Shown here in pieces: positions 26,601 to 64,000 of a stretch of DNA of 64,000 bases (the stretch's first letter is position 1; each line of letters starts with the position of its first letter). Location: the NCBI RefSeq assembly GCF_019973735.1, contig NZ_AP024463.1, positions 3,224,001 through 3,288,000 on the forward strand. Reading direction: 5' to 3'. Made by a program: the position numbers and the translations under genes. The notes under the pieces are model-generated. The model did no database searches and was not told where the DNA came from. It was given only the letters and a program-made list of their open reading frames with translations. This DNA comes from Arachnia rubra. GTDB lineage: Bacteria; Actinomycetota; Actinomycetes; Propionibacteriales; Propionibacteriaceae.

Positions 26601-26674
26601 CGGGGTGTGGCGCAGCTTGGTAGCGCGCGTCGTTCGGGACGACGAGGCCGCAGGTTCAAATCCTGTCACCCCGA
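26601..26674 (+). tRNA. tRNA-Pro (anticodon CGG)
   Basis: 74 bases folding as a full cloverleaf: acceptor CGGGGTG/CACCCCG with discriminator A, anticodon stem CGTCG/CGACG with loop TTCGGGA (anticodon 26635-26637), T loop TTCAAAT. CCA is not encoded. Lower-GC accessory genes follow directly, so its 3' end may have served as an integration site. Confidence 0.96.
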
Positions 26675-26818
26675 CAAAAAATTTCATCTTCAATCATCTA
26701 TTCTCAGCAGAATCAGTCGCCCCAGCCTCATCAACCAGCCGCTGGGACTGGTCGCGATTGAGCAGATAGCCGCAGATCAGTCAATGTCACATGTCAGTGA
26801 TCTCTCAGCTCCCGATAG

Positions 26819-27622: not shown

Positions 27623-28082
27623 GCTTGACCAACTCCTTGGTTAGCCCCATATGGGGTGGTTTGTGCTGTCCATGAAAGCTTCTCAAGCGTAGCGTACGGT
27701 ATGGCACTGCTGCGCAATGAGAACACTAAGGGCATTATTCACGGCTTTGGTTAAATGGGCCCTGACAAGGAGGTTCATATCTTTGCAAGATTCTGCTGAA
27801 TAACCCCTTGGACTCACGGGCGGATCGCAGCGAACAGCGAACTGGTCCTGATAGCGTCTCTATCAGATTTTCAAACCAAATGCTCAGCAGGTGACGCAGG
27901 TCATGCGGATTAGGCTATGACACGAACACCTGTGCATTAACTTTCCTCAAGGTAAACTGTCTTGAATGGGTAACGTATGTCCAGACTTGCTATAGAGAGG
28001 GTGACGTTCTGGGGTCACGGAACAAGACTGGGCCTTGGGGGATGTTCTCTACTTCTCGATGACCTCACGGAAAGGAGAGGCC
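27623..28082. other. Intergenic stretch with a dispersed repeat, no gene seen
   Basis: Low-GC gap of 460 bases. A short repeat unit lies at 27724-27770 (listed separately). The remainder must hold the promoters of the divergent genes on either side; GGAAAGGAG at 28071-28079 is the ribosome site for the gene at 28083. Confidence 0.5.
27724..27770. repeat. Dispersed short repeat (ACTAAGGG-TTATTCAC type)
   Basis: ACTAAGGGCATTATTCACGG ... GGCCCTGACAAGG. The opening block recurs at 38753 and the TGACAAGG end recurs at 23319, 38805 (inverted) and 54640 (inverted). Confidence 0.5.
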
Positions 28083-28654
28083 ATGAAAAATAGATTCATC
28101 AGGCAGATTCTAGCGCTGCTGCTGGGATTCAGCCTGTTCCTGGTGCCAGCTACTGCCAGCGCAGATGAGGGGACCAGCCAGTCGGAGGAACAGGCGGGGT
28201 TCACCGACGCCCAAGTGGTTGAGCTTGAGCAGTACCTGAACACCTTGTTTGCTGAAGTGGTGGTCAAGGACGAACAGACCGGCCAGCTGCACATTGATTA
28301 CGACGCCGCCAAGCGGCTGTATCCTGATCGGGACCTGTCCGTCCTGTCGATACCCGCCAGTCAGCTCGACACATCGAGTCACAACGGCGCCGGGCCACTT
28401 GACCTGAAGGATTACGCCTGGTGCGTGGTCAAAGGGGCTATCCCTTTTATCGGACTGCTTGACGTCAATTGGGGCCTATCCGCATGTGGGTCCGTCAGCA
28501 GAACTGGGGAGCTCTTTCTAGGTACCTAGGTAAAGAGATCCCCAAGCGCGCCGCCAAGATCGGCATCAAAGATGCCCTTGCACTGAGCCCATGGGGAGTT
28601 GCAGGTAAACTGGCAGCATCCGCAGTGGGTTGTGCCATTTGGCAAGGATGGTGA
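28083..28654 (+). CDS. Secreted hypothetical protein with hydrophobic C-terminal helix, frameshifted
   Basis: ATG 28083 after GGAAAGGAG. A signal peptide (to ATASADE) is followed by an acidic region and a segment IPFIGLLDVNWG. There the frame ends in a stop at 28529, while a second frame carries on with PIRMWVRQQNWGALSRYLG and ends KLAASAVGCAIWQGW at 28654. Adding one G to the GGGG run at 28471-28474 fuses the two into one protein of about 190 residues. The tail is a helix of the kind found in exported, membrane-active proteins. Unknown family; paired with a small membrane protein downstream. Confidence 0.6.
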
Positions 28655-28661
28655 TTCCATT

Positions 28662-28922
28662 TTGAAGAAGCAAGAACCTGGTCAAAAGTGGAAGCTTTGG
28701 GATGGTTCCCTCAAAGGTCATCTGCGCTTCTACAGGCCCTCGGCAACTAACTACGTCGTCCGTGGGGTTGGCACATTCGCAATCATTGCCATCATGTTCC
28801 CGCGCTCCCGTTTCCTCGGAGCAATCCTGATGGGATTGGGCTATGTGGTCGCAGAGTTCCTCTCCTACCAGATTGCCCTGGCCATCTACCGCCGACGACT
28901 CAAGAAGAAATACCACCGATGA
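28662..28922 (+). CDS. Small membrane protein downstream of the secreted protein
   Basis: About 86 residues from TTG 28662, with AAGG some 12 bases ahead; a start further upstream in the same frame is possible. A soluble N-terminus (LWDGSLKGHLRFYRPS) is followed by two helices (YVVRGVGTFAIIAIMF, FLGAILMGLGYVVAEFLS) and a basic tail RRRLKKKYHR. It begins 8 bases after the preceding gene, so they are probably one operon; an immunity or export partner is conceivable. Confidence 0.5.
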   Translation: MKKQEPGQKWKLWDGSLKGHLRFYRPSATNYVVRGVGTFAIIAIMFPRSRFLGAILMGLGYVVAEFLSYQIALAIYRRRLKKKYHR

Positions 28923-29070
28923 CACCGTAAGCCTCACGGGCGCAGCAGCTGCCTACGATCTCATGTGTCACGACCCATGAATTACGGTCCAAAACCTCAC
29001 CTCACCACTTCAACCTTATGCCATTTATAAGTATGTAGACTTTTAAGTAGCATCCAGCCAGGCTAGGGAC

Positions 29071-29292
29071 GTGACTCAGGGCGATCTCCAACGAACGGTG
29101 GGCGCGAATCTGCGCGCCTGGAGATTGAAACGTGGCCTGAGTCAAGAGGAGTTCGCTGAGATATTTGATTTTCACCGCACTTACATGGGAGGCATCGAGC
29201 GCGGTGAACGGAACCTCTCTTTGAAGAGTTTGGAACGCATCGCCGAGGTACTAAAAGTGGATCCCAGGGAGTTGCTAGACCCAACGAGGTGA
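29071..29292 (+). CDS. XRE-family helix-turn-helix regulator
   Basis: 73 residues from GTG 29071. The whole protein is one HTH_3 domain: LRAWRLKRGLSQEEFAEIF, then YMGGIERGERNLSLKSLERIAEVLKV. Its size and sequence resemble controller (C) proteins of restriction-modification systems, but no methylase or endonuclease gene is nearby. It may be a leftover regulator from a mobile element. Confidence 0.8.
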   Translation: MTQGDLQRTVGANLRAWRLKRGLSQEEFAEIFDFHRTYMGGIERGERNLSLKSLERIAEVLKVDPRELLDPTR

Positions 29293-29341
29293 GCAGCCCG
29301 TTCGAGCTCCATCCTTCGCGCCGGGCCCGAACTGCTTGTGG

Positions 29342-29790
29342 CTAGGCCATTCTTAGCGAAGTGCTGAGGGTGGCGGGACTAGCTAGCTGGTGGGGGGTGT
29401 AGGAGAAGCCCAACCACCCCTGGAGTTCCTTGATCGTACGGTCTCCCTCAACAAGGGATACATAGGAGGTGTTCCCAAACCACACCTGAAGATATTCGAT
29501 GGTTTGTGGGCCCATGATGCCGTCGACGGTAAGCCCGTAACCCGACTGATTCATATGCTTTTGAAAGGCTTGGATGGTGGTGGAGCCGGACGCGTCGCTC
29601 CATTCCCAGCCAAACGATCGACTTTCATGGCGGGATCGCCCATGTGATCAGGCGAGCTCGTCATCCAGACGTTGTCATCCATCTCCATGCGGCTGGCCAT
29701 ATGAATCTCACGACGGGCCTCGGACCACACCTCGCTGAGCACTGGGACCAAGCGGTGCGACCAGGTGCGTTCAAGGTTGATGTCGGTCAT
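29342..29790 (-). CDS. Protein with C-terminal peptidoglycan-binding-like repeats, frameshifted
   Basis: A frame from ATG 29790 (MTDINLERTWSHRLVPVLSEV) runs to a stop at 29551; a second frame carries STTIQAFQKHMN, GLTVDGIMGPQTIEYLQ and RTIKELQGWLG to a stop at 29342, a pattern of PG_binding_1 modules. One added base in the TTT run at 29623-29625 (plus strand) joins them as ...DPAMKSRSFGWEWSDASGS..., about 148 residues. The C-terminal modules suggest a small wall-binding protein or a fragment of a phage-type lysin. The N-terminal half is unknown. Confidence 0.5.
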
Positions 29791-29914
29791 GGCAACTCCT
29801 TTCGTTGATCACATGTGCGACACGCATATTGTGCAGTAGTACCAGCACAGGCGGTGGTGTGGGGCAGATGCACCCAAACCGCCGTCTGCTGGTCTATGCA
29901 GAGAAGGTTAACGA

Positions 29915-30151
29915 ATGCCCACCAAGGAACCAGAGCTCAAAGCGCTTAAAGTGCGCAACGTATCGGTCAGATTGCCGGAAGATATCTTCGAGACGCTCGT
30001 GTCGGTTGCCCGCGTCGACGGCGAGACGATGGGTGAAGTCATCCGCAAGGCCATCAACAGTTATGCGGCTGACAGAAAATCCTCAGAAGACTGGGCTGAG
30101 AAGGTTCACGAACTTCAGCGACAGTTGAAGGCTGTGCTTCCACATGTCTGA
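29915..30151 (+). CDS. Ribbon-helix-helix DNA-binding protein (antitoxin-like)
   Basis: 78 residues; AGAAGG site before ATG. The core VRNVSVRLPEDIFETLVSVARVDGETMGEVIRKAI matches RHH/CopG-type domains that bind DNA as dimers and often serve as antitoxins. No toxin gene follows; the next gene is the convergent GH81 gene 17 bases away. An orphan regulator, with lower GC than the operon beside it. Confidence 0.7.
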   Translation: MPTKEPELKALKVRNVSVRLPEDIFETLVSVARVDGETMGEVIRKAINSYAADRKSSEDWAEKVHELQRQLKAVLPHV

Positions 30152-30168
30152 GTGGAGTGAACCGGGAC

Positions 30169-45873: not shown

Positions 45874-46033
45874 TGCTGTGTGGTGGGAGTTTGTCAGTGG
45901 GAGGCGGTTCCGGGGCGGATGCGTCGCGAGGCAACCGAGTGAAACGCTACCGGGTCGTACCGTGAGCGAGGTGAACGACGCGAGGCGCCGCATCCGGGAG
46001 CGAAAAACACCGGCGAACTCACACCACACGGCA
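45874..46033 (+). repeat. MITE-like repeat, best-preserved copy (160 bp)
   Basis: Terminal inverted repeats of 21 bp agree at 17 positions (45874-45894 and 46013-46033; TGC-GTGTGGTG-GAGTT pattern). Inside are GGGGCGGATGCG, GAGTGAAACGCTACCGGG and GAACGACGCGAGGCGCCGCATCC, blocks that recur in at least five places after 57 kb. It ends 13 bases before the start codon of the S9 peptidase gene, so it supplies that gene's upstream region. No coding capacity. Confidence 0.75.
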
Positions 46034-46046
46034 CTAAGCTCGGCCC

Positions 46047-54734: not shown

Positions 54735-55655
54735 TCATGGCTCGACGGTGCGCCCGTCAATCACAGCCATGATCCGGTCCAAGTCGTCGGCAGAGGCAAA
54801 CTCGATGGTGATCTTGCCCTTGTTCTTACCGATGGCAACCTTCACCCGGGTATCAAAATGGTCGGAGAGCACAGCCGCGACCGCGGCTTCACGTTCTGAG
54901 GGCAACCGCCGGACACGCTGCGTCGGTTCCTCGTCCGTTGGGACGTTGCCGAGCCGGACCATTTCCTCTGTGCTGCGCACTGAGAGCCCCTCGGCGACAA
55001 CGCGCTCAGCAAGCAGCTCTTGCGCTCGCTGATTCGTCAATCCCAGCAGTGCTCGTGCATGCCCGGCGGAAAGCACACCGGCAGCCACCTTGGTCTGCAC
55101 GGTGGAGGGGAGGCTCAGGAGCCTGAGGGTGTTCGAGATCTGCGGCCGGCTACGGTGAATCTTCTGGGAGAGCTGTTCTTTGGTGCAGTTGAAGTCTCCC
55201 AGGAGCTGCTGGTACGCGAGGGCTTCCTCCAGGGGATTGAGGTTGGCCCGGTGAAGGTTCTCCAGAAGCGCATCACGCAGCAGGGCATCATCATCGGTGC
55301 CACGGACAATAGCTGGAATCGTCTCCTTGTCCGCAAGTTTGGAGGCGCGGAACCGGCGTTCGCCCATGATCAACTCATAGTGATCGGGCTCCACCTCACG
55401 CACCACGACGGGCTGCAGCACCCCGAACTCTTTAATGGAGGCAGCCAATTCGTTGAGATCATCCTCATCGAAGACGTGACGTGGCTGCCGGGGGTTGGGT
55501 ACGATCTGCTCCAGCGGCAGCTCCACAAAGTAGGAGCCATCCCGGAGCCGCTCGGAGGGAGCAGCAGGCTTGCTCTGGGTTTCCGGTTCGTCGGTCCGGG
55601 CGAAAAGATCCCCGAGGCCCTTTCCAAGACCAACGTGCTGTTTTGCTCTGGCCAT
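54735..55655 (-). CDS. parB: Chromosome partition protein ParB
   Basis: 306 residues. CTP-dependent clamp that loads at parS and spreads to form the origin partition complex. N-terminal QHVGLGKGLGDLF (ParA contact), the CTP-binding region with RQPRHVFDEDDLNELAASI and ELIMGERRFRA, the HTH (KEQLSQKIHRSRPQISNTLRLL), and a C-terminal dimerisation domain. The start overlaps the parA stop by one base. A decayed copy of codons from about residue 114 to 166 lies at 58995-59146. Confidence 0.95.
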   Translation of the reverse strand: MARAKQHVGLGKGLGDLFARTDEPETQSKPAAPSERLRDGSYFVELPLEQIVPNPRQPRHVFDEDDLNELAASIKEFGVLQPVVVREVEPDHYELIMGERRFRASKLADKETIPAIVRGTDDDALLRDALLENLHRANLNPLEEALAYQQLLGDFNCTKEQLSQKIHRSRPQISNTLRLLSLPSTVQTKVAAGVLSAGHARALLGLTNQRAQELLAERVVAEGLSVRSTEEMVRLGNVPTDEEPTQRVRRLPSEREAAVAAVLSDHFDTRVKVAIGKNKGKITIEFASADDLDRIMAVIDGRTVEP

Positions 55656-56665
55656 CAGGCTGCTCCTTCAGTCTCGATGGATCGGGCGATCTCTTCGGCG
55701 GCCTTGAGGTAGGCGACAGCGCCAGGAGACTTGGGGTAGTAGGTGAGGACGCTCTGGCCATAGGACGGGGCCTCAGCGATCCGCACCGAACGTGGGATTT
55801 CCACGTCAAGCGTTTCCTCCCTGAAATGCGACCGTACCTCGGTGGCTACCTCATGGGAGAGGTTCGTGCGATTGTCAAACATCGTCAGGAGCACCGTCGT
55901 CAACTGTAGTTGATCATTCAGGTTTCCCTTGACCCGTTGGATAGTACGCATCAGCTGGGAGACACCCTCGAGAGCGTAGTACTCGCATTGAATGGGCACC
56001 ATGATCTCGGTAGAGGCAACGAGAGCGTTGAGCGTGAGAAGCCCCAGCGAAGGGGGACAGTCGAAAAAGACGTAGTCAACCCCAGATTCCTCGATATATT
56101 GAGCCAGCGCCCTCTTCATTCTGGACTCACGGCCGGACTCATTGACGAGTTCCAGTTCCGCGGTGGAAAGGTCGATCGTGGCGGGGAGGACGTGCAGATT
56201 CGGCGTGTGGGGAGACTGGACGGCGAGGTCCTGGATCCGTTCTCCACGAAGCAGTACCTCGTAGGTTCCCGGGGTTCCAGGGTCATGTTCGACGCCGAGA
56301 GCAGTGGATGCGTTGCCCTGTGGATCGATGTCAATCACAAGCACGTTGAGGCCGCCAAAGGCGAGGGCGGCAGCGATGTTCACGGTCGTGGTCGTCTTCC
56401 CGACGCCGCCCTTTTGGTTGGCGACCACGAAAATGCGGGGTTCTTCCGGACTCGGCAGCGCTGACATCTGAGTCTCGTCCCCGTACTCAGCGCCATACTC
56501 GTCATCAGCCACCCAGTCGTCATCGGCACGATCAAAGTAAGCGCGCCGCGGTCCGATGGGGGTCTGGATGGCCGTTTCACGTGAAACGCTCTCGTGGTCC
56601 TTCCAAGGCTCGACTTCTGCGTCTTGTTTCGGAGTACGCTTGCGCTTGCGAAAGAACAGGGCCAT
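55655..56665 (-). CDS. parA: Chromosome partition ATPase ParA
   Basis: 336 residues. Walker-type ATPase that moves ParB-bound origins: deviant Walker A KGGVGKTTTT, VLVIDIDPQGNAS, and FFDCPPSLGLL. An unusually long N-terminal tail of about 80 residues is acidic and variable; inside it SVSRET is encoded by a parS site, as in several actinobacterial parA genes. Genes rsmG, jag and yidC would normally lie just upstream (to the right) but are absent. Confidence 0.95.
   Translation of the reverse strand: MALFFRKRKRTPKQDAEVEPWKDHESVSRETAIQTPIGPRRAYFDRADDDWVADDEYGAEYGDETQMSALPSPEEPRIFVVANQKGGVGKTTTTVNIAAALAFGGLNVLVIDIDPQGNASTALGVEHDPGTPGTYEVLLRGERIQDLAVQSPHTPNLHVLPATIDLSTAELELVNESGRESRMKRALAQYIEESGVDYVFFDCPPSLGLLTLNALVASTEIMVPIQCEYYALEGVSQLMRTIQRVKGNLNDQLQLTTVLLTMFDNRTNLSHEVATEVRSHFREETLDVEIPRSVRIAEAPSYGQSVLTYYPKSPGAVAYLKAAEEIARSIETEGAA
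56574..56587. other. parS site 1 (inside parA)
   Basis: Exact GTTTCACGTGAAAC, the universal ParB-loading sequence, within codons of the parA N-terminal tail. Confidence 0.95.
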
Positions 56666-56733
56666 GTAGTCCTCCTCCTTTGATGCTCACCAACTTTAGC
56701 TTGAGTCAATGACGCGGACTGAAACTCAACGGC

Positions 56734-56747
56734 GTTTCACGTGAAAC
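56734..56747. other. parS site 2
   Basis: Exact GTTTCACGTGAAAC, 68 bases before the parA start codon, in its likely promoter region; ParB bound here could repress parAB. Confidence 0.95.
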
Positions 56748-56795
56748 AGAATGCGCAGATCCGAATGGATGACGTTGTCGCCGACACCTCGAGAC

Positions 56796-56833
56796 TGGTA
56801 CCAGTGCGTTTCACGTGAAACGCACTGGTACCA
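56796..56833. other. parS site 3 in a 38-bp perfect palindrome
   Basis: The core GTTTCACGTGAAAC at 56808-56821 is extended by exact complementary arms (GGTACCAGTGC and its complement, plus one more pair). The arms are not part of the parS consensus. Confidence 0.95.
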
Positions 56834-57221
56834 CAAAGCCTTGTACCTGCGATCCTGTGACCAAGGCAAGTACGGGATCCCGCCGGCAGGGGCGGGGGTG
56901 AGGTGAAAGAACTCCGGACTCATCCATCGCAGATCACCCCGCCGGACGCAGCGCATTGCACTTCACGGCAAGGGTCTGGTGGGGGTTGGCTGTGTCTACC
57001 GCCAGGAGATCCCCGGCAACATCAGTAGCTCTCACAAGGAATCACGAAGAGACCGGGACCAACCAAGGCATTGTGAATCAACAATCACCATCACCTATCA
57101 GACACCCGACGCCGGTGAGATATGGACCACACCTCGCGGCAGCAGACTCATCCTGACAAGATGGTCTTACCGACGAATCTCTATACCCTGATATCAACTT
57201 AGAGATTCCGCCGGAACGCAT

Positions 57222-57353
57222 GGGCGTTGCGTGTAATCTTGCGCAGCGGGTCGTCGTTTCGCCGGTTTTCCAGCCACGGATGCGTGGTGCCTCGCATCGT
57301 TCACCTCACCCAGGACACGACCCAGTCCAGTTTCATTCGATTGTCTTGGCAAT
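57222..57353 (-). repeat. MITE-like repeat, inverted, degenerate
   Basis: Reverse-oriented blocks matching 45874-46033: CACGGATGCGTGGTGCCTCG, TCGTTCACCTC, and TTTCATTCGATTGTCTTGG. Ends are poorly kept. Confidence 0.55.
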
Positions 57354-58188
57354 ACCCCTTCCAGAACTACTTCTCGCTAAGTTCCACACACGACACAGGT
57401 GCCGCTGGCAGAAGCTCAGCGAAGGTAGGTGCTCCCGGAACGCTGTGAGAGAGGTGACGTCCAGCAGAGGCGTCAGAGAGAAGAAAAGCACTCGGGTAAA
57501 TCTGACACTCGACTGGCAGGTGCTCCTGACCTCGGCAAGGGGCGCTGCCAGCGATACCCCGAGACCAGATGATGCCTGCATGCTACGAGTCGACTAGTTC
57601 TTACCTGGTCTTCGTATCATCTGCTCAAGAATCCCCAGACGATTCCATTACCTGGGACCGCTTCCGAACGCGCAGAACATCCGATGGCTCTGGGCAGGCA
57701 TAAGGAGATGCTAGGCACCGCTACACCGGACAACTGGGACCACACCATGAGCGATCTTGGTTCGTCCCTGCTCTGACCAGCTCCGGTAACCTCCTTGCGA
57801 TAGCCAGCAAAACCATCGAAACCCACGAGGTCGCGATGCATAACAAGTGCCCATGAGAAAGCGAGTCAGCCAGGCCAGGGTGGGGTCAGGTTCTTTGGGC
57901 AGCAACCGTGGCTGGAGGTTTGACTGTCGTAACCAAGCCTATTAAATGTTATAGCGATATATAAATATCTCTGTATCTGGGTATTTCTACGGGCTATGTG
58001 AGCCACCAGCTTTGCGTAGAAGCCCCCAACGACGGATGTGAGGGAAGCGACGCTCAACCCCATGGGTAAGGTGCAAGGGAAGAGGCATGCAAGCAACGAT
58101 GATCCGAAGCCAAGACAGCGGATAGGCAATGCGAGCCAACTTGGCTCTCCCAGACGAACTGACAGATGGGCCTAACCCTGGCCATCAG

Positions 58189-58262
58189 TCGCATGTCGGG
58201 GAGAGGTCGTTCCGGGGCGGATGCTATGCCAAGGCAGCCAGGCAAAACGTCATGGGCACCCC
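58189..58262 (+). repeat. MITE-like repeat, partial
   Basis: Contains GTTCCGGGGCGGATGCTATG, CCAAGGCAGCCAGGCAAAACG, then diverges. Left part only. Confidence 0.5.
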
Positions 58263-58614
58263 GTGGGCAAGGCGGGGTTTAGCTCCGGGGCCTCTGCGGG
58301 TGCAAGCACCACAGCACCATACTGCTCCCGCAGACAGCGATGCAGACTATCTACGTCGTAGATATACACACCTCAAGGTCATCTGTCGCTGGCCATCAGC
58401 AGCGAGACAAGAAGGCATTTGTAGGTCTCCCCGTGAGGGGTCGGTTGCCCAGTTACCATCCATGCTTCGGGCACCGGTCAATACACACGCCCATACATGA
58501 GGCTCCCACGGCGGAACTAGAAGCTATTCGCTCCTAGGAGCTCCGATCAGTCCTTCGGCATCAAGTCGAGGCATCCATTTCCTTTCGATGGAGGGGACTT
58601 TTCTAACCCGTTGT

Positions 58615-58648
58615 GGCTGTCTGCGTTTCACGTGAAACGCAGACAGCC
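58615..58648. other. parS site 4 in a 34-bp perfect palindrome
   Basis: Core at 58625-58638, arms GGCTGTCTGC and exact complement. The arm sequence differs from that of site 3. Confidence 0.95.
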
Positions 58649-58650
58649 TT

Positions 58651-58817
58651 GCTAGTCGTGTACCGGGAGTTCGTTAGTAGGAGGCAACCCTGGGGCGGAT
58701 GCTGTGCCAAGATGACCGAGTGAAACTGCTACTAGACGTGCTGTGAGCAAGGTGAGCGAAGCGAGACGCCGCATCCAGGATCGAAAACACCCATGAACTA
58801 ACGCCACACAGCGCTAG
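58651..58817 (+). repeat. MITE-like repeat
   Basis: Near full length: GGGGCGGATGCTGTGCCAAG, ACCGAGTGAAACTGCTAC, GAGCGAAGCGAGACGCCGC, ending AACTAACGCCACACAGCGC, which is inverted with GTGTACCGGGAGTTCG at the left end. It starts right beside parS site 4. Confidence 0.65.
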
Positions 58818-58994
58818 AGTCGTAGGCCCGGGAAGTCATTAGCAAAGACAGCAACCACGGACTACGTAGACACCTGATCAAGGCGGATCCGAACAGTACA
58901 GGACCTACAGATCGATGATGACCGCCACCAGCCAGGATGAATTAGAGCACTTGCCGACTGAGTATCTGTCGTTTCTACCCCACAGTAGTCAAGG

Positions 58995-59146
58995 CCAGCT
59001 ATTGTCCGTGGCATCGACGATGATGCTCTGCTGCGTGATGCGCTTCTGGAGAACCTTCACTGAGCCACCTCCCCTGAGGAAGTCGCGTATTAGCAGCTCC
59101 CGGGAGACTTCAACTGCACCAAAGAACAGTTTTCCCAGAAGATCCA
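58995..59146 (+). pseudogene. Decayed fragment of parB
   Basis: About 150 bases match parB codons at 55157-55316 (inverted relative to parB), including GCTATTGTCCGTGGCA, CTGCTGCGTGATGCGCTTC and ACTTCAACTGCACCAAAGAA. Translation gives AIVRGIDDDALLRDALLENLH, then stops and gaps, then GDFNCTKEQFSQKIQ. It covers the CTP-binding/HTH border of ParB. Clearly not functional. Confidence 0.9.
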
Positions 59147-59735
59147 GCAGCAGGCATGAGTAGAGCGCTGGTCGGGAGCTCACAGCACCCACTCACCCAG
59201 CAGTGCTTCCACCAGCATCATGGTTATTAAGAGGTCCCTCAATGGAATCGGGTAGCACCAAGCTCGGCACTGTACTGTTCATTGTCGACGCGAACCGGAG
59301 CGTGTATCGCTTGCCCGAGTTGCCGCCGTGACGGAACACGGCCTGCAACACACCTACATCGGCGGGGCCCGCCCCCATAGCTGAAGATATCCGGCGAATG
59401 TATGAGGCGCGGCACAAGGATCCGCTGACGTTCAGCTGACCTCTATCTGGTTTGCCTTGCGCTCGATTACTCGAACAGCATCTGTCGGGACCGATTCTCC
59501 GGCATGAAGTTGACTGTAACCAGCGTCCAGAGGCTTCGCCCACCCTACTAGCGTCGGTTCCTGTCATTTCACCGATGTTCTCCAGCCTCCAGTGCACCGT
59601 TTGACTTCGTTCAAGGAAAGCCCCCAGACCCCGGATCACCGTCGATACCAGGCTCGTAGAGGATTCTTCCCGCCGCATCACCGCAGCCGGGCGCATTCGG
59701 GTGGTCCTGACTGATGAGCTTAAGAAGGAATAACC

Positions 59736-59753
59736 CCGTTTCACGTGAAACGG
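59736..59753. other. parS site 5
   Basis: Core GTTTCACGTGAAAC at 59738-59751, palindrome extended by two pairs (CC/GG). Confidence 0.95.
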
Positions 59754-60458
59754 AGCGGTGTACAGCTACCAAGCGCAAAGCCAGCAAATAGAGGTAACTC
59801 AGATCGAGCACAAATGCATCACGGACCATACAAGATAGTCTTCGTTCTCGGCGATGCTGCTCTCCCCGCATGGGTTCCCTGATCTTCTTGAGTGCTCTGC
59901 ACGATAGGGCCGCAGGGGTCCACGGTGCTGCCCAGCCCTCAGGCGACTGCATGCCGGGTGCCCCTTCCCAAATTTCCAGCGCATTGGTCACAGCGTCGCC
60001 TTGGAACTCCAGTATGTCAGGCAAGGAGTTGTAACCAGTTCTCAGAGGTCCCACCTGTGGTGGTGAGGCAGCGTCAATACCGTGCTGGCAAAGTCGAGGG
60101 GTCTGCCAGTCCGGTCCGGCAAGGCCACATAACCAGGATGATGTCTGGATGTTGCGAGTCAATCAGACTCTCATTAGCGGGATCCCCCCACGTCATAGCT
60201 TTTGAGCTCCGCTTGTATGGCTACCGGCTGGGTCAGGGCAGCGCGTCCCCTGGCCTCACCTGAAGACTTGCCGCTACCCGGCAATCTTTATCTTTCAGCC
60301 CTTTGATTCTGGATTATCCGCTGAGCACCTTGGGTTTAGAGTACGGGATCCGTGGAATTCGCATATGCCACAGCCCCAGCAGACAGCCGCCATGTTTTAC
60401 GGTAAAGCACCTGACGAAGCCAGCCGCTCAGGAATTCCCCCGGCCATCATCGAGAGTT

Positions 60459-60488
60459 TCGCTGCCGTTTCACGTGAAACGGCAGCGA
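60459..60488. other. parS site 6 in a 30-bp perfect palindrome
   Basis: Core at 60467-60480 with arms TCGCTGCC and exact complement. Confidence 0.95.
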
Positions 60489-61612
60489 GTAGGCCCATTG
60501 CCTAGGGGTGATACCGGCATGCGGCGCTACAGACAAAGACCTGGCGGAGGTGAGCTGGAGATTTGGAAATGACACGATACCCACTCGAAGCTCTACGAGG
60601 TCGATCAACAGCCGCGCTCCCATCCTGCTCACTAGACACCCAAGAAGCTCTCGCTCAACGGGCAAGCGACGCCCACACTCACTGTCACGATAGAAGCAAG
60701 GTGGCATTTGATCCCGTAACGCTGTCTCCAAGCACCTCACACTCTCTACCGCAAGGATTCTCTCAGCCCGACGATTCCACGGCCGAATCTGTGCCGACAA
60801 GCACGCAACGTATACAGCCGCTCAATAGCCCGCAGGATAAGGCGGCATGATGGTGCATGTCGTACTTAAGCTCTTCACGAGCTTCAGATCCCGCTCATAG
60901 GCGGGTGGTGGGCAAGCAACGTCCACCACGTCCGTCGATTTCGCCGTGAAAATACGCTGAATCATGCGCCGCTCCCTACCCCCCACCAGGGGCCTGGGTG
61001 CCACGTCAGCTAAACCCCCTCAGTAGGTCCGTGCGACCCCTTCGATCGCACCTGCCAAGCTCAAGGCATCGTCATGGGTGTAGCAAGGTAGTGTTCGCAT
61101 GGCAGCTCCCACCTCAGACCTGACGAGTGAATTTGGCGGTAATAAGGGGACCCGGGCTTTCTGGAGTCTCCCTGCAGCTCTTCCGAAGTCCTGAAACCGG
61201 GCGGAAGCCCAGCAGGAGCACTAGTCCTATCGGCTGATTCTGATTGAATTCGACCACGTGACACAGAAGTAGAAGCTCCGTGACGAGGCACTCTCTGGAA
61301 GCTAGTCCACCGTGATGGCCACCTTACCTATGACTCGGGCTCTCTTGGGTATGCCAACCCGGATCAGTGCAGCCCAGCCATTGACGATTTCATTGCGATG
61401 GTCAGCGTACAGCACAGCGCTCTTATCATGCCTTGTCAGAGCGGATTCTGGAGCGGCTCGTATCACAACACCACGGCATCGGAGTTATTTCTAAATTCCT
61501 ATCTGCCTCAAGCCATATATAGGTAAGTAGGCAAAACTATTTATCTTTTAGAGGTCTGGAGGCCATCGTCGTCTACCGTGGCTGGGGCTGGTTCCGGACC
61601 TTGAAGAGCCTT

Positions 61613-61774
61613 ATGCCGTGTGTCGGGAGGTTCCCCAGTAAGTCGGCTCCGGGGTGGATGCTGCGCCAAGACAACCGAGCGAAACGCTACCGGGGCGTAC
61701 CGCGAGCAAAGTGAACGAAGCGAGCGCCGCATCCAGAGCCAATAGACACCGGCGAACTAACGCCACACGACACC
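61613..61774 (+). repeat. MITE-like repeat
   Basis: Near full length: CCGGGGTGGATGCTGCGCC, ACCGAGCGAAACGCTACCGG, GAACGAAGCGAGCGCCGCATC, and inverted ends ATGCCGTGTGTCGGG / AACGCCACACGACAC. Confidence 0.7.
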
Positions 61775-62390
61775 AGCTTTCCTTCCTGGTCTCACTACGC
61801 GCTCTCTCCGTTCACCAGGTAGGTTTCCTCGGTCAAGACAAGGTCAGCCCCTCATGGTATGAGGGGTCCAGGGATTTCAGAGCCCAGCCATGGCTCGAAG
61901 CAGGTGTTGAGGCACACCACCAAAAACAATCCTCTACGACGGCCTATACACCTTCCCACGGACACAAGCATTGAACCCGACTGGGAACACACCAGCATGT
62001 GTGGGAAGTCCCTTCTCAGCGGTTCTCCCCTCCGCGGGGATGACGCATCAAGCAGGCGGTTACTAGCATCATGCAAGACGTAAGAAAACACAGTAAACAT
62101 GGCATCGGGTGTCCCGTCGGGTGCTTCCGGCCCCGGATACGGTCACCTCCTCGCCTGCGGCACCCCTAGTGTTGCGTGACTCAACTACCTCGCGAAACAT
62201 CCACTCTGGAACCAGCCCTCGCTGACGAGCCTCCGATACACGACTCCAGGGCTAGCCGCAACGTGTGCCCATCCATCAGCGAATCTCTATCCTGCTACGA
62301 TCCACCAGTCCACACACCGCTATGTACTGACGCGTTTTCTCTACGTCAGGAGCGCAGCCGCAATGGTGGGGGTAAGTCCATTGATCGGTC

Positions 62391-62404
62391 GTTTCACGTG
62401 AAAC
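62391..62404. other. parS site 7
   Basis: Exact GTTTCACGTGAAAC; only one further pair extends the palindrome. Confidence 0.95.
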
Positions 62405-62598
62405 GCCCTCCGCCCCACTCCACATCAGACAGCTGATCTGCACGACGTGCAAGAGCCTCCGAGAAACATGCAACACAGTAGTCAGATCGTCTTCAAGTTG
62501 TACCGATAAAGCAATATACATATAAATACTCTCCAAGGTCGCTGTCGACGATTTCCCGAGGATCTTCGTTGTGGCTGGGCCGGCTCTGATGGCATGCA

Positions 62599-62714
62599 AA
62601 AGTTCGTCAGTAGCAGTAAGAGGCAGGTCCGGAACAGATGCTGCGACGAGGAAACCAGGCGAAATGATGAAGGTCATACCCACACCACGAGCAAGGCACG
62701 CCAGAGAGAACATC
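62599..62714 (+). repeat. MITE-like repeat, strongly degenerate
   Basis: GTTCGTCAGTAGCAGTAAGAG, GGTCCGGAACAGATGCTGCG, GAAACCAGGCGAAATGATG and CACGAGCAAGGCACG follow the order of the better copies. Confidence 0.45.
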
Positions 62715-63055
62715 CGGCACAAAGACGAAGACACGCATCACCACTGTGAATCACCCGACTCGCATGGCTAAAATCCTGCTCTAACGTGAAGCCATGATGT
62801 TGACCATCGTCGGTGGGCGTCTTTGCCGCGGAAGTTTACCGATGGCAGCTCTGGAGAACCTGACGATATGAAGCAACAAACCAAGCGCCCTTTGGCCAGC
62901 CGACCGGGTGGTGCATCGATGATTACAAGCAGACAGTGACTGCGATGCGTTCCCTGGACAAATCGCTCATAACCTCGTGAATAACCAGGATCCCCAAAAA
63001 ACCTGCGCTGCACCCATCCCCTACCCATCCGCCGCAACGCCCTGGTACCTGGTCA

Positions 63056-63204
63056 CGTGTCATCATTCACCGGTGACTTCCGGCTCCGGATGCAGCACCT
63101 CGCTTCGGTCACCTCTCTCACGGTACGGATACAATCTGGTAGTGCTTCCTCCACCCGGCCACGTTGGCACAGCATCCGGTCTGGCTACCTCTCGTTGACG
63201 AACG
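63056..63204 (-). repeat. MITE-like repeat, inverted
   Basis: Reverse-oriented blocks: CCGGCTCCGGATGCAGCACC, CTTCGGTCACCTCTCTCACG, GGTACGGATACAATCTGGTAG and GCATCCGGTCTGGC. It precedes parS site 8 by about 45 bases. Confidence 0.55.
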
Positions 63205-63246
63205 TCCGGCGCAGTCATCAGGGGCATGCAAGCTTGACTCTGCGGT

Positions 63247-63266
63247 TGCGTTTCACGTGAAACGCA
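63247..63266. other. parS site 8
   Basis: Core at 63250-63263, extended to a 20-bp perfect palindrome (TGC/GCA arms). Confidence 0.95.
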
Positions 63267-64000
63267 CCGCTACTCTCCCAGGCGAAGAATCTAAAAGAGA
63301 AAAATCCTCACCATATAGCGACGCTGAAGCTCATTCACGGATAGCCGGGAAGACAGTGAAACCCCTTGCCGGAGCCAGATTGTCCGAGGCGATGAATAAG
63401 CCTTGCCGGTCAGGTCAGCACGTGGCATGAAGCTATCCCTTACCCGCCAGCCAGTATCCTCGTCTTTGCCAGTCGGTGTCTGGCAGAGATAACTCACGGT
63501 TCTGCTAGCGAGGATTTCCGCGTAATCCCGAGGCGGCGGACCGGCATCACTATGCCGTCAGCGTGTGGCCCCAGCATCTCTTCCGATGCGGCCCACCTCA
63601 CACAACTGCCCATGACAGCGGCAATGCTTCTCATCCCCTAGCCTGACCGGTGTCTCACCAAATCGAGAACTCAACTCAACAACCTGGAGACCTCCGCCAC
63701 GAGGATGACGACGAGGCAGGCCACTCTAGACACCATCGCGGTGAACCACAGCCACGATGCACATTGGCATGTGTCGATGATGAATAAAGTCCAAAACACC
63801 TGACGTGCACCATGTCAGCCGACTCTCTCAACAGGATTGTGTGAGTACACCCACGACGCTGGCAATAGTCTGATGGAACGACGATCAGATCCTGCTGCTG
63901 CCGCATTGCACGAAGGACTGTCACCGACGAGATCAGAGAAAACACCCGCTGCCTTGCACCCGCTAATGCATAGCAGCAATACTCTCGCAATTTATGCCAT

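Follow-up and report, generated by a model that had tools for sequence, protein, structure and literature searches.

A dense parS cluster in an expanded parA-rsmG spacer of Arachnia rubra and its relatives, a candidate chromosomal centromere

The parS sites of bacterial chromosomes are usually discussed as scattered among genes near the origin of replication. Two described systems come closest to the one reported here. In Corynebacterium glutamicum, which also has an actinobacterial ParABS system, all ten parS form one oriC-proximal cluster and nine of the ten are non-coding, according to the available extracts of the study (PMC7083940). That cluster spans 35 kb, lies 73 kb from oriC, and distributes its nine non-coding sites over several intergenic regions. 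In Myxococcus xanthus, 22 parS are packed into 3 kb near parA, at a distance of about 4 kb, as stated in the accessible part of the account (PMC3899335). Here we describe a parS cluster of Arachnia rubra (genome G000, a single contig of 3,316,972 bp) in a stretch of 64,000 nucleotides, G000:C1:3224001-3288000, hereafter the window; coordinates are window positions. Eight parS fall within 6.7 kb, at about 5.1-11.8 kb from dnaA, and all but one occupy a single gap between parA and rsmG that has no recognisable gene. The cluster is like that of M. xanthus in being very dense and close to parA, although the latter is denser still and belongs to an unrelated phylum. It differs from that of C. glutamicum in its compactness, its single gap and its distance from the origin.

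The locus is probably, though by no means certainly, the chromosomal ParABS centromere of Arachnia species, lodged in an expanded parA-rsmG spacer without recognisable genes, in which it would be chiefly the parS sites that are selected. This reading is drawn from sequence comparison. The exact parS core GTTTCACGTGAAAC occurs eight times between 56574 and 63263, and a whole-genome search found no exact core elsewhere in the chromosome, so that all eight sites of the genome (8/8) lie in one locus. The degenerate core GTTYCACGTGRAAC likewise has a genome-wide count of eight. Chance would be expected to supply 0.07 matches (100 shuffles at a looser setting, a 16-mer with at most three mismatches), and the degenerate core was absent from all 300 shuffles of the gap sequence. 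The parA gene contains one site and its promoter another, at 69 bp from the start of the gene; six are farther out. The first (parS 1, 56574..56587) is within the parA coding sequence and has a counterpart at a like place in 8/8 parS-rich genomes of the clade described below; the promoter site (parS 2, 56734..56747) lies inside about 100 bp that can be aligned among sister species. Next come parS 3 (56808-56821), inside a 38-bp perfect palindrome (56796..56833) with a predicted RNA hairpin of -31.2 kcal/mol (z -8.2), and parS 4 (58625-58638), within a 34-bp perfect palindrome (58615..58648). Of the remainder, parS 5 (59738..59751) forms an 18-bp palindrome and also has a terminator-like score on the minus strand, parS 6 (60467-60480) is within a 30-bp perfect palindrome (60459..60488), parS 7 (62391..62404) is a 16-bp palindrome, and parS 8 (63250..63263) is a 20-bp perfect palindrome. 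The preliminary description of the window had listed eight exact cores in 6.7 kb, one in parA and seven in DNA without a supportable gene, and all were recovered.

The gene order around the cluster is canonical, and a single junction, parA-rsmG, is expanded. The parB gene (54735..55655, minus strand, 306 amino acids) matches TIGR00180, ParB/RepB/Spo0J, with 196 bits, and a search with its product gave [Pseudopropionibacterium] massiliense, Arachnia propionica and a Tessaracoccus as the nearest named relatives. The adjoining parA (55655..56665, minus strand, 336 amino acids) has ParA-family matches; ParA identity is 92-58% in the 38 other genomes of the genus, and parB is adjacent to parA in the loci examined. 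Just past the window edge, rsmG-jag-yidC-rnpA-rpmH-dnaA are intact and in their usual order. For most of these the evidence is the open reading frames (ORFs) as read, and homologues of rsmG, jag and yidC stand in the same order in relatives. The end of rsmG is at window-equivalent position 64,980. Between it and the start of parA lies the gap (56666..64000 in the window, continuing to window-equivalent 64,979), which measures 8,314 bp and has no recognisable gene. The preliminary description was thus right that the block is displaced from parA by at least 7.3 kb of filler. Hidden copies of rsmG, jag or yidC within the gap are ruled out, all three being intact beyond the window. Sites resembling DnaA boxes lie at rpmH-dnaA and dnaA-dnaN, and none was found in the gap at one mismatch. 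The locus has two sequence features of a chromosomal (type Ia) ParABS system: adjacent parA and parB near oriC, with parS palindromes nearby beyond chance.

The expansion is shared by a clade. We counted parS with the degenerate core in 39 genomes of the genus, one per species. Eight of the 39 have 6-8 sites, 30 have 2-4, and one, G015, in which parA is at a contig end, has none. The eight parS-rich genomes and G006 form one branch (support 100/99 in the ParB tree and 93/89 in the ParA tree), so that 8/9 species of this clade carry 6-8 parS, versus 0-4 in the other 30 genomes. The ninth, G006, has three parS and is 87% complete; a contig end cuts off its gap after 2.7 kb, and rsmG was not found in this genome. 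Most parS of the clade fall within the parA gene, the parA promoter or the gap. Seven gaps are fully read, at 8.3 kb in G000, 9.8 in G018, 3.9 in G005, 3.7 in G004, 3.6 in G002, 3.5 in G047 and 3.3 in G010; that of G024 is split over two contigs and is not counted among them. Four of the seven appear gene-free (G000, G018, G010 and G047), with no weighty six-frame Pfam match and longest ORFs within the range of shuffles, the lone Pfam match in G047 (E 0.26) being far below its cut-off. Gaps outside the clade measure about 0.1-6.6 kb where parA and rsmG are on the same contig, and parS number there does not track gap length: G020 and G046 have gaps of 6.4-6.6 kb and 2-3 parS. Mixed half-site parS (GTTTCACGTGGAAC / GTTCCACGTGAAAC) are also present in the gaps of G004 and G018 (L033:8249, 8913, 9195; L036:16534), and exact-core counts therefore understate parS in these two. 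The preliminary description had proposed something like a dedicated centromere and a comparison of gene order with sister genomes. The expanded junction is real, and centromere-like is a fair description of a locus with all parS at one junction and a displaced gene block. Neither is peculiar to G000: an expanded gap rich in parS characterises the nine-species clade.

Between species, parS 1 and parS 2 stay in place, the other parS stand at new spacings, and the DNA between them changes. Aligned with the gaps of G004, G005 and G002, the G000 gap shares 101 bp beside parA (80-81% identity, parS 2 included; coverage 1%) and no other same-strand piece of at least 40 bp. In these three genomes 83-99% of the oriC intergenic region can be aligned; 2% of the G000 gap aligns in them once the first 110 bp are excluded, about the size of a parB fragment described below. 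The informative pair is G004/G002, in which 28% of 711 four-fold degenerate sites differ. Its gap coverage is 4%, and the sole aligned piece of at least 40 bp is 122 bp beside parA; simulations run at 28% substitution, with 0-0.2 indels for every substitution, recovered 55-100% of the gap. Two other pairs point in the same direction less firmly: G010/G047 (37% four-fold difference, coverage 7%, simulations at 37% giving 5-100%) and G005/G002 (35%, coverage 3%, simulations at 34% giving 10-100%). Where this can be judged, the alignments indicate that filler is replaced rather than merely mutated while parS persist. Intervening sequence replaced around kept sites is what we find for G004/G002 and, less strongly, for G010/G047; it is not what we find for G004/G005, and most other pairs are too diverged.

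A mechanism can be suggested from known ParB biochemistry. Each parS would be a loading point for clamps of ParB bound to CTP (cytidine triphosphate), which would then slide onto neighbouring DNA. This would build one dense partition complex beside oriC, left undisturbed in a gene-free tract; the complex may be segregated by ParA and recruit SMC. Because no gene lies inside, few clamps would be cleared by transcription and filler would be free to come and go, and selection would bear chiefly on how many parS there are and whether they are intact, not on the intervening DNA. ParB has been reported to spread about 15 kb, and in vitro its sliding is stopped by bound roadblocks, with bypass through ParB-ParB recruitment (PMC9242446, from the extracts at hand).

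Several points weigh against a centromere of this kind. Within the same extracts, chromatin immunoprecipitation in vivo did not show ParB occupancy changing strongly beside a certain kind of obstacle (PMC9242446), which would make empty DNA less necessary. A single parS maintains chromosome architecture in C. glutamicum (PMC7083940, in the part available), and many parS therefore need not mean a special function. Within the clade, one parS in each of G002, G004 and G005 lies away from parA, its promoter and the gap, and gaps above 8 kb occur in G000 and G018 only, the other five being 3.3-3.9 kb. Gene-freeness does not extend to the whole clade (4/7 only): a ThrE-family gene is in the gaps of G004 and G005, and the gap of G002 (L035:11186-14808) has a 364-amino-acid ORF that has no Pfam match and whose length was reached by 1/200 shuffles. 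This ORF spans a parS with a 38-bp palindrome. The codon score of the G000 gap agrees with gene-free DNA but is a weak test, the conserved ThrE genes themselves having scored -0.02 and -0.11. As to turnover, G004 and G005 (34% four-fold difference) align over 40% of the gap, in two pieces: 108 bp at its start and a segment of 1.34 kb that carries ThrE. The remainder is unalignable. Pairs with a four-fold difference of at least 43% are uninformative, and every pair with G000 is among these. Four-fold sites are possibly under codon selection and slower than truly neutral DNA, and with G018 the oriC intergenic region is unalignable as well.

It is possible, if on the unlikely side, that the gap is ordinary junk: an insertion-tolerant junction would have gathered decayed mobile-element debris, the parS count would be normal for the species, and the lack of genes would have no function. 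Across the genus, the parA-rsmG junction repeatedly takes up unrelated cargo. All five non-clade gaps tested carry genes, GH3 in G048, G052 and G046, MFS in G046, an IS21-type element in G020 and an IS4/5-type transposase in G012, and ThrE is found inside the clade. The 1.7-kb gap of G016 had no ORF beyond shuffle range. The G000 gap itself holds debris. A dispersed repeat of about 160 bp occurs at some twenty other places in the genome, intergenic where read (40 of the 74 candidates from the own-genome search were scored); the copy used as query, at 45877-46044, sits between two long ORFs. Six decayed copies with 65-80% identity lie in the gap, and the window outside it, 56.6 kb, has only the query copy. 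Three are on the plus strand, at 58194..58272 (68%), 58658..58816 (76%) and 61618..61773 (80%), and three on the minus strand, at 57258..57397 (67%), 62140..62241 (65%) and 63066..63203 (67%). A 92-bp piece matches another dispersed family at 90%, which looks like the end of an insertion sequence (IS), the label being our own reading. There is also an inverted parB fragment (58995..59146, plus strand), 87% identical to the parB of G000. Compared with parB of ten relatives, the fragment is 78% identical to that of G005, 74% to G004, 72% to G002 and 68-72% to six more, and matches that of G018 over 65 bp only (77%); none exceeds 78%. Being nearer to its own parB than to those of the sisters, it entered the gap after the split from them.

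Repeats, IS-end-like piece and parB fragment together make up about 1.0 of the 8.3 kb, and the remainder is unrecognised. The earlier suggestion of growth by repeat insertion is partly borne out by these pieces, but the repeats do not bring parS with them, because parS are found nowhere else in the genome. Debris alone does not explain why 8/9 species of the clade have 6-8 parS while the filler and most parS positions change, nor why 4/7 clade gaps are without recognisable genes.

Some parS of the clade have unusually long palindromic arms. Arms that extend perfect pairing by six or more positions on either side of the 14-nt core are present at 10/37 parS in clade gaps, with 0.01-0.04 expected, and at 0/17 parS in parA, the promoter or outside the gap. 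This count covers eight genomes and nine loci (the G024 gap being on two contigs), with G006 left out. The armed sites are perfect palindromes of 26-46 bp, the longest (46 bp) in G010, and their arm sequences differ between sites and yet pair. The three long-armed parS of the window have predicted RNA hairpins of -24.5 to -31.2 kcal/mol (z -5.6 to -8.2). Long arms may arise by copying within palindromes, or they may be kept as hairpins that halt stray transcription. Elsewhere in the genus such arms were seen at 3/65 sites. In loci of other genera, 14/108 parS have perfect arms of this length (L060-L062, L071, L092, L095, L099, L109, L116, L122, L125, L127), and palindromic parS are therefore wider than the clade. 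Some of these are followed by T-runs and are terminator-like (L095:9027, L125:7032).

The arms raise the prospect that palindromic parS are two-way transcription stops, hairpins without a U-tract, and that the main role of the region is to insulate the rsmG operon and parA from each other. The excess of armed sites over expectation, the strong hairpins of the window and the pairing of otherwise varied arms fit such a role, as does parS 5, itself one of the six terminator-like sites in the gap. We nonetheless regard it as improbable. No such arms are present at 27/37 gap parS, no U-tract follows the three long-armed parS of the window, and the terminator scan of the gap gave no excess (6 versus 7.2 in shuffles). 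Two 22-bp palindromes in clade gaps contain no parS, and a mutational origin of the arms is therefore possible.

Still less probable is a gap taken up by an overlooked gene, for an RNA or a protein, or by the remains of a prophage or island. The gap is long enough, at 8.3 kb with 46 ORFs of at least 60 amino acids. However, the six-frame protein search that had been proposed found no gene: there was no Pfam match in the gap up to E = 1, and an Rfam search, made for G000 only, gave no match. The longest ORF (183 amino acids) is of the length found in dinucleotide shuffles, where the mean over 200 was 182 and at least 183 was reached in 80/200 (84/200 in a repeat run). Promoter-like sigma-70 sites number one versus 4.0 expected, with no excess. 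In the 38 other genomes of the genus, the gap matches parB only (E up to 1e-8; at most seven candidates scored per genome), and no convincing remnant of the relatives' cargo genes was found in it by tblastn, the best E being about 1.4. As judged from sequence, the G000 gap has no protein or structured-RNA gene, and it qualifies as a gene-free spacer.

In composition the gap also stands apart, with 56.1% guanine plus cytosine (GC) versus 64% reported for the likely strain. That strain is A. rubra DSM 100122T, whose genome is given in the portion available as 3,316,958 bp with 64.2% GC, one circular PacBio contig at 185x (PMC8638593); G000, 14 bp apart in total length, is presumably the same. 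Of the methylation motifs in that report, CTGCAG and ACGABCT reach in the gap about half their density per kb in window 1-56 kb, or less, and GAAATG is slightly commoner, on counts of 2-4 sites each that are too few to weigh. A second ORF-poor stretch of low GC (50-56%) lies at 27640-30160, about 1 kb past a tRNA-Pro (26601-26675), and shares no sequence with the parS gap at E 0.01. An assembly artefact is improbable in the extreme, as six other clade genomes have fully read, expanded, parS-rich gaps at the same junction, the window's portion of the gap has no long exact repeats, and the likely matching genome was published as one circular contig at 185x (PMC8638593, in part).

The parS sequence itself varies within the genus. 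Six members (G001, G009, G014, G017, G045 and G050; loci L045 and L153-L157) carry GTTCCACGTGGAAC in place of GTTTCACGTGAAAC at the parA and promoter parS, G009 with one GTTCCACGTGGAAC site and one mixed site. In ParB, a change of R201 to K is the only alignment column that is fixed in those six without occurring in any of the 33 canonical rows, which comprise 31 genus genomes and two outgroups, G008 and G015 being left out. On the ParB tree the change requires two events, though G014 is a long branch. R201 seems to match R204 of Caulobacter ParB, judged by the G198-R201 spacing. Caulobacter R204 contacts parS and is conserved in ParB and Noc, according to the accessible text (PMC7383237). G020 has one GTTCCACGTGGAAC site beside a canonical site, and its ParB keeps R.

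Function is kept in eukaryotic regional centromeres while the DNA changes fast, and their mark is largely epigenetic. It is doubtful, but worth stating, that Arachnia sensu stricto has a bacterial regional centromere. Such a centromere would be defined by parS number in a largely gene-free spacer, its inter-parS DNA would be replaced faster than synonymous sites, and parS would be born there and gain long perfect arms. If this were true, centromere evolution could be watched under site gain and loss, as in eukaryotes. Unlike the eukaryotic mark, the 14-16-bp parS is sequence-specific, and a location not fixed by sequence alone is not what we find, the core being exact at every site of G000. 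We therefore speak of a likeness to regional centromeres, not of membership. Dense parS clusters were already known; what appears to be new is that, in this clade, the spacer around the cluster turns over between species and has no recognisable gene in several of them. Our searches of open-licence PMC literature found no clade described with a parS cluster in such a spacer. The nine species of the clade, of which eight carry 6-8 parS and seven have fully read gaps of 3.3-9.8 kb, offer a comparative series and a natural test system for two questions: whether transcription-poor DNA favours the loading of ParB, and how parS are gained and lost.

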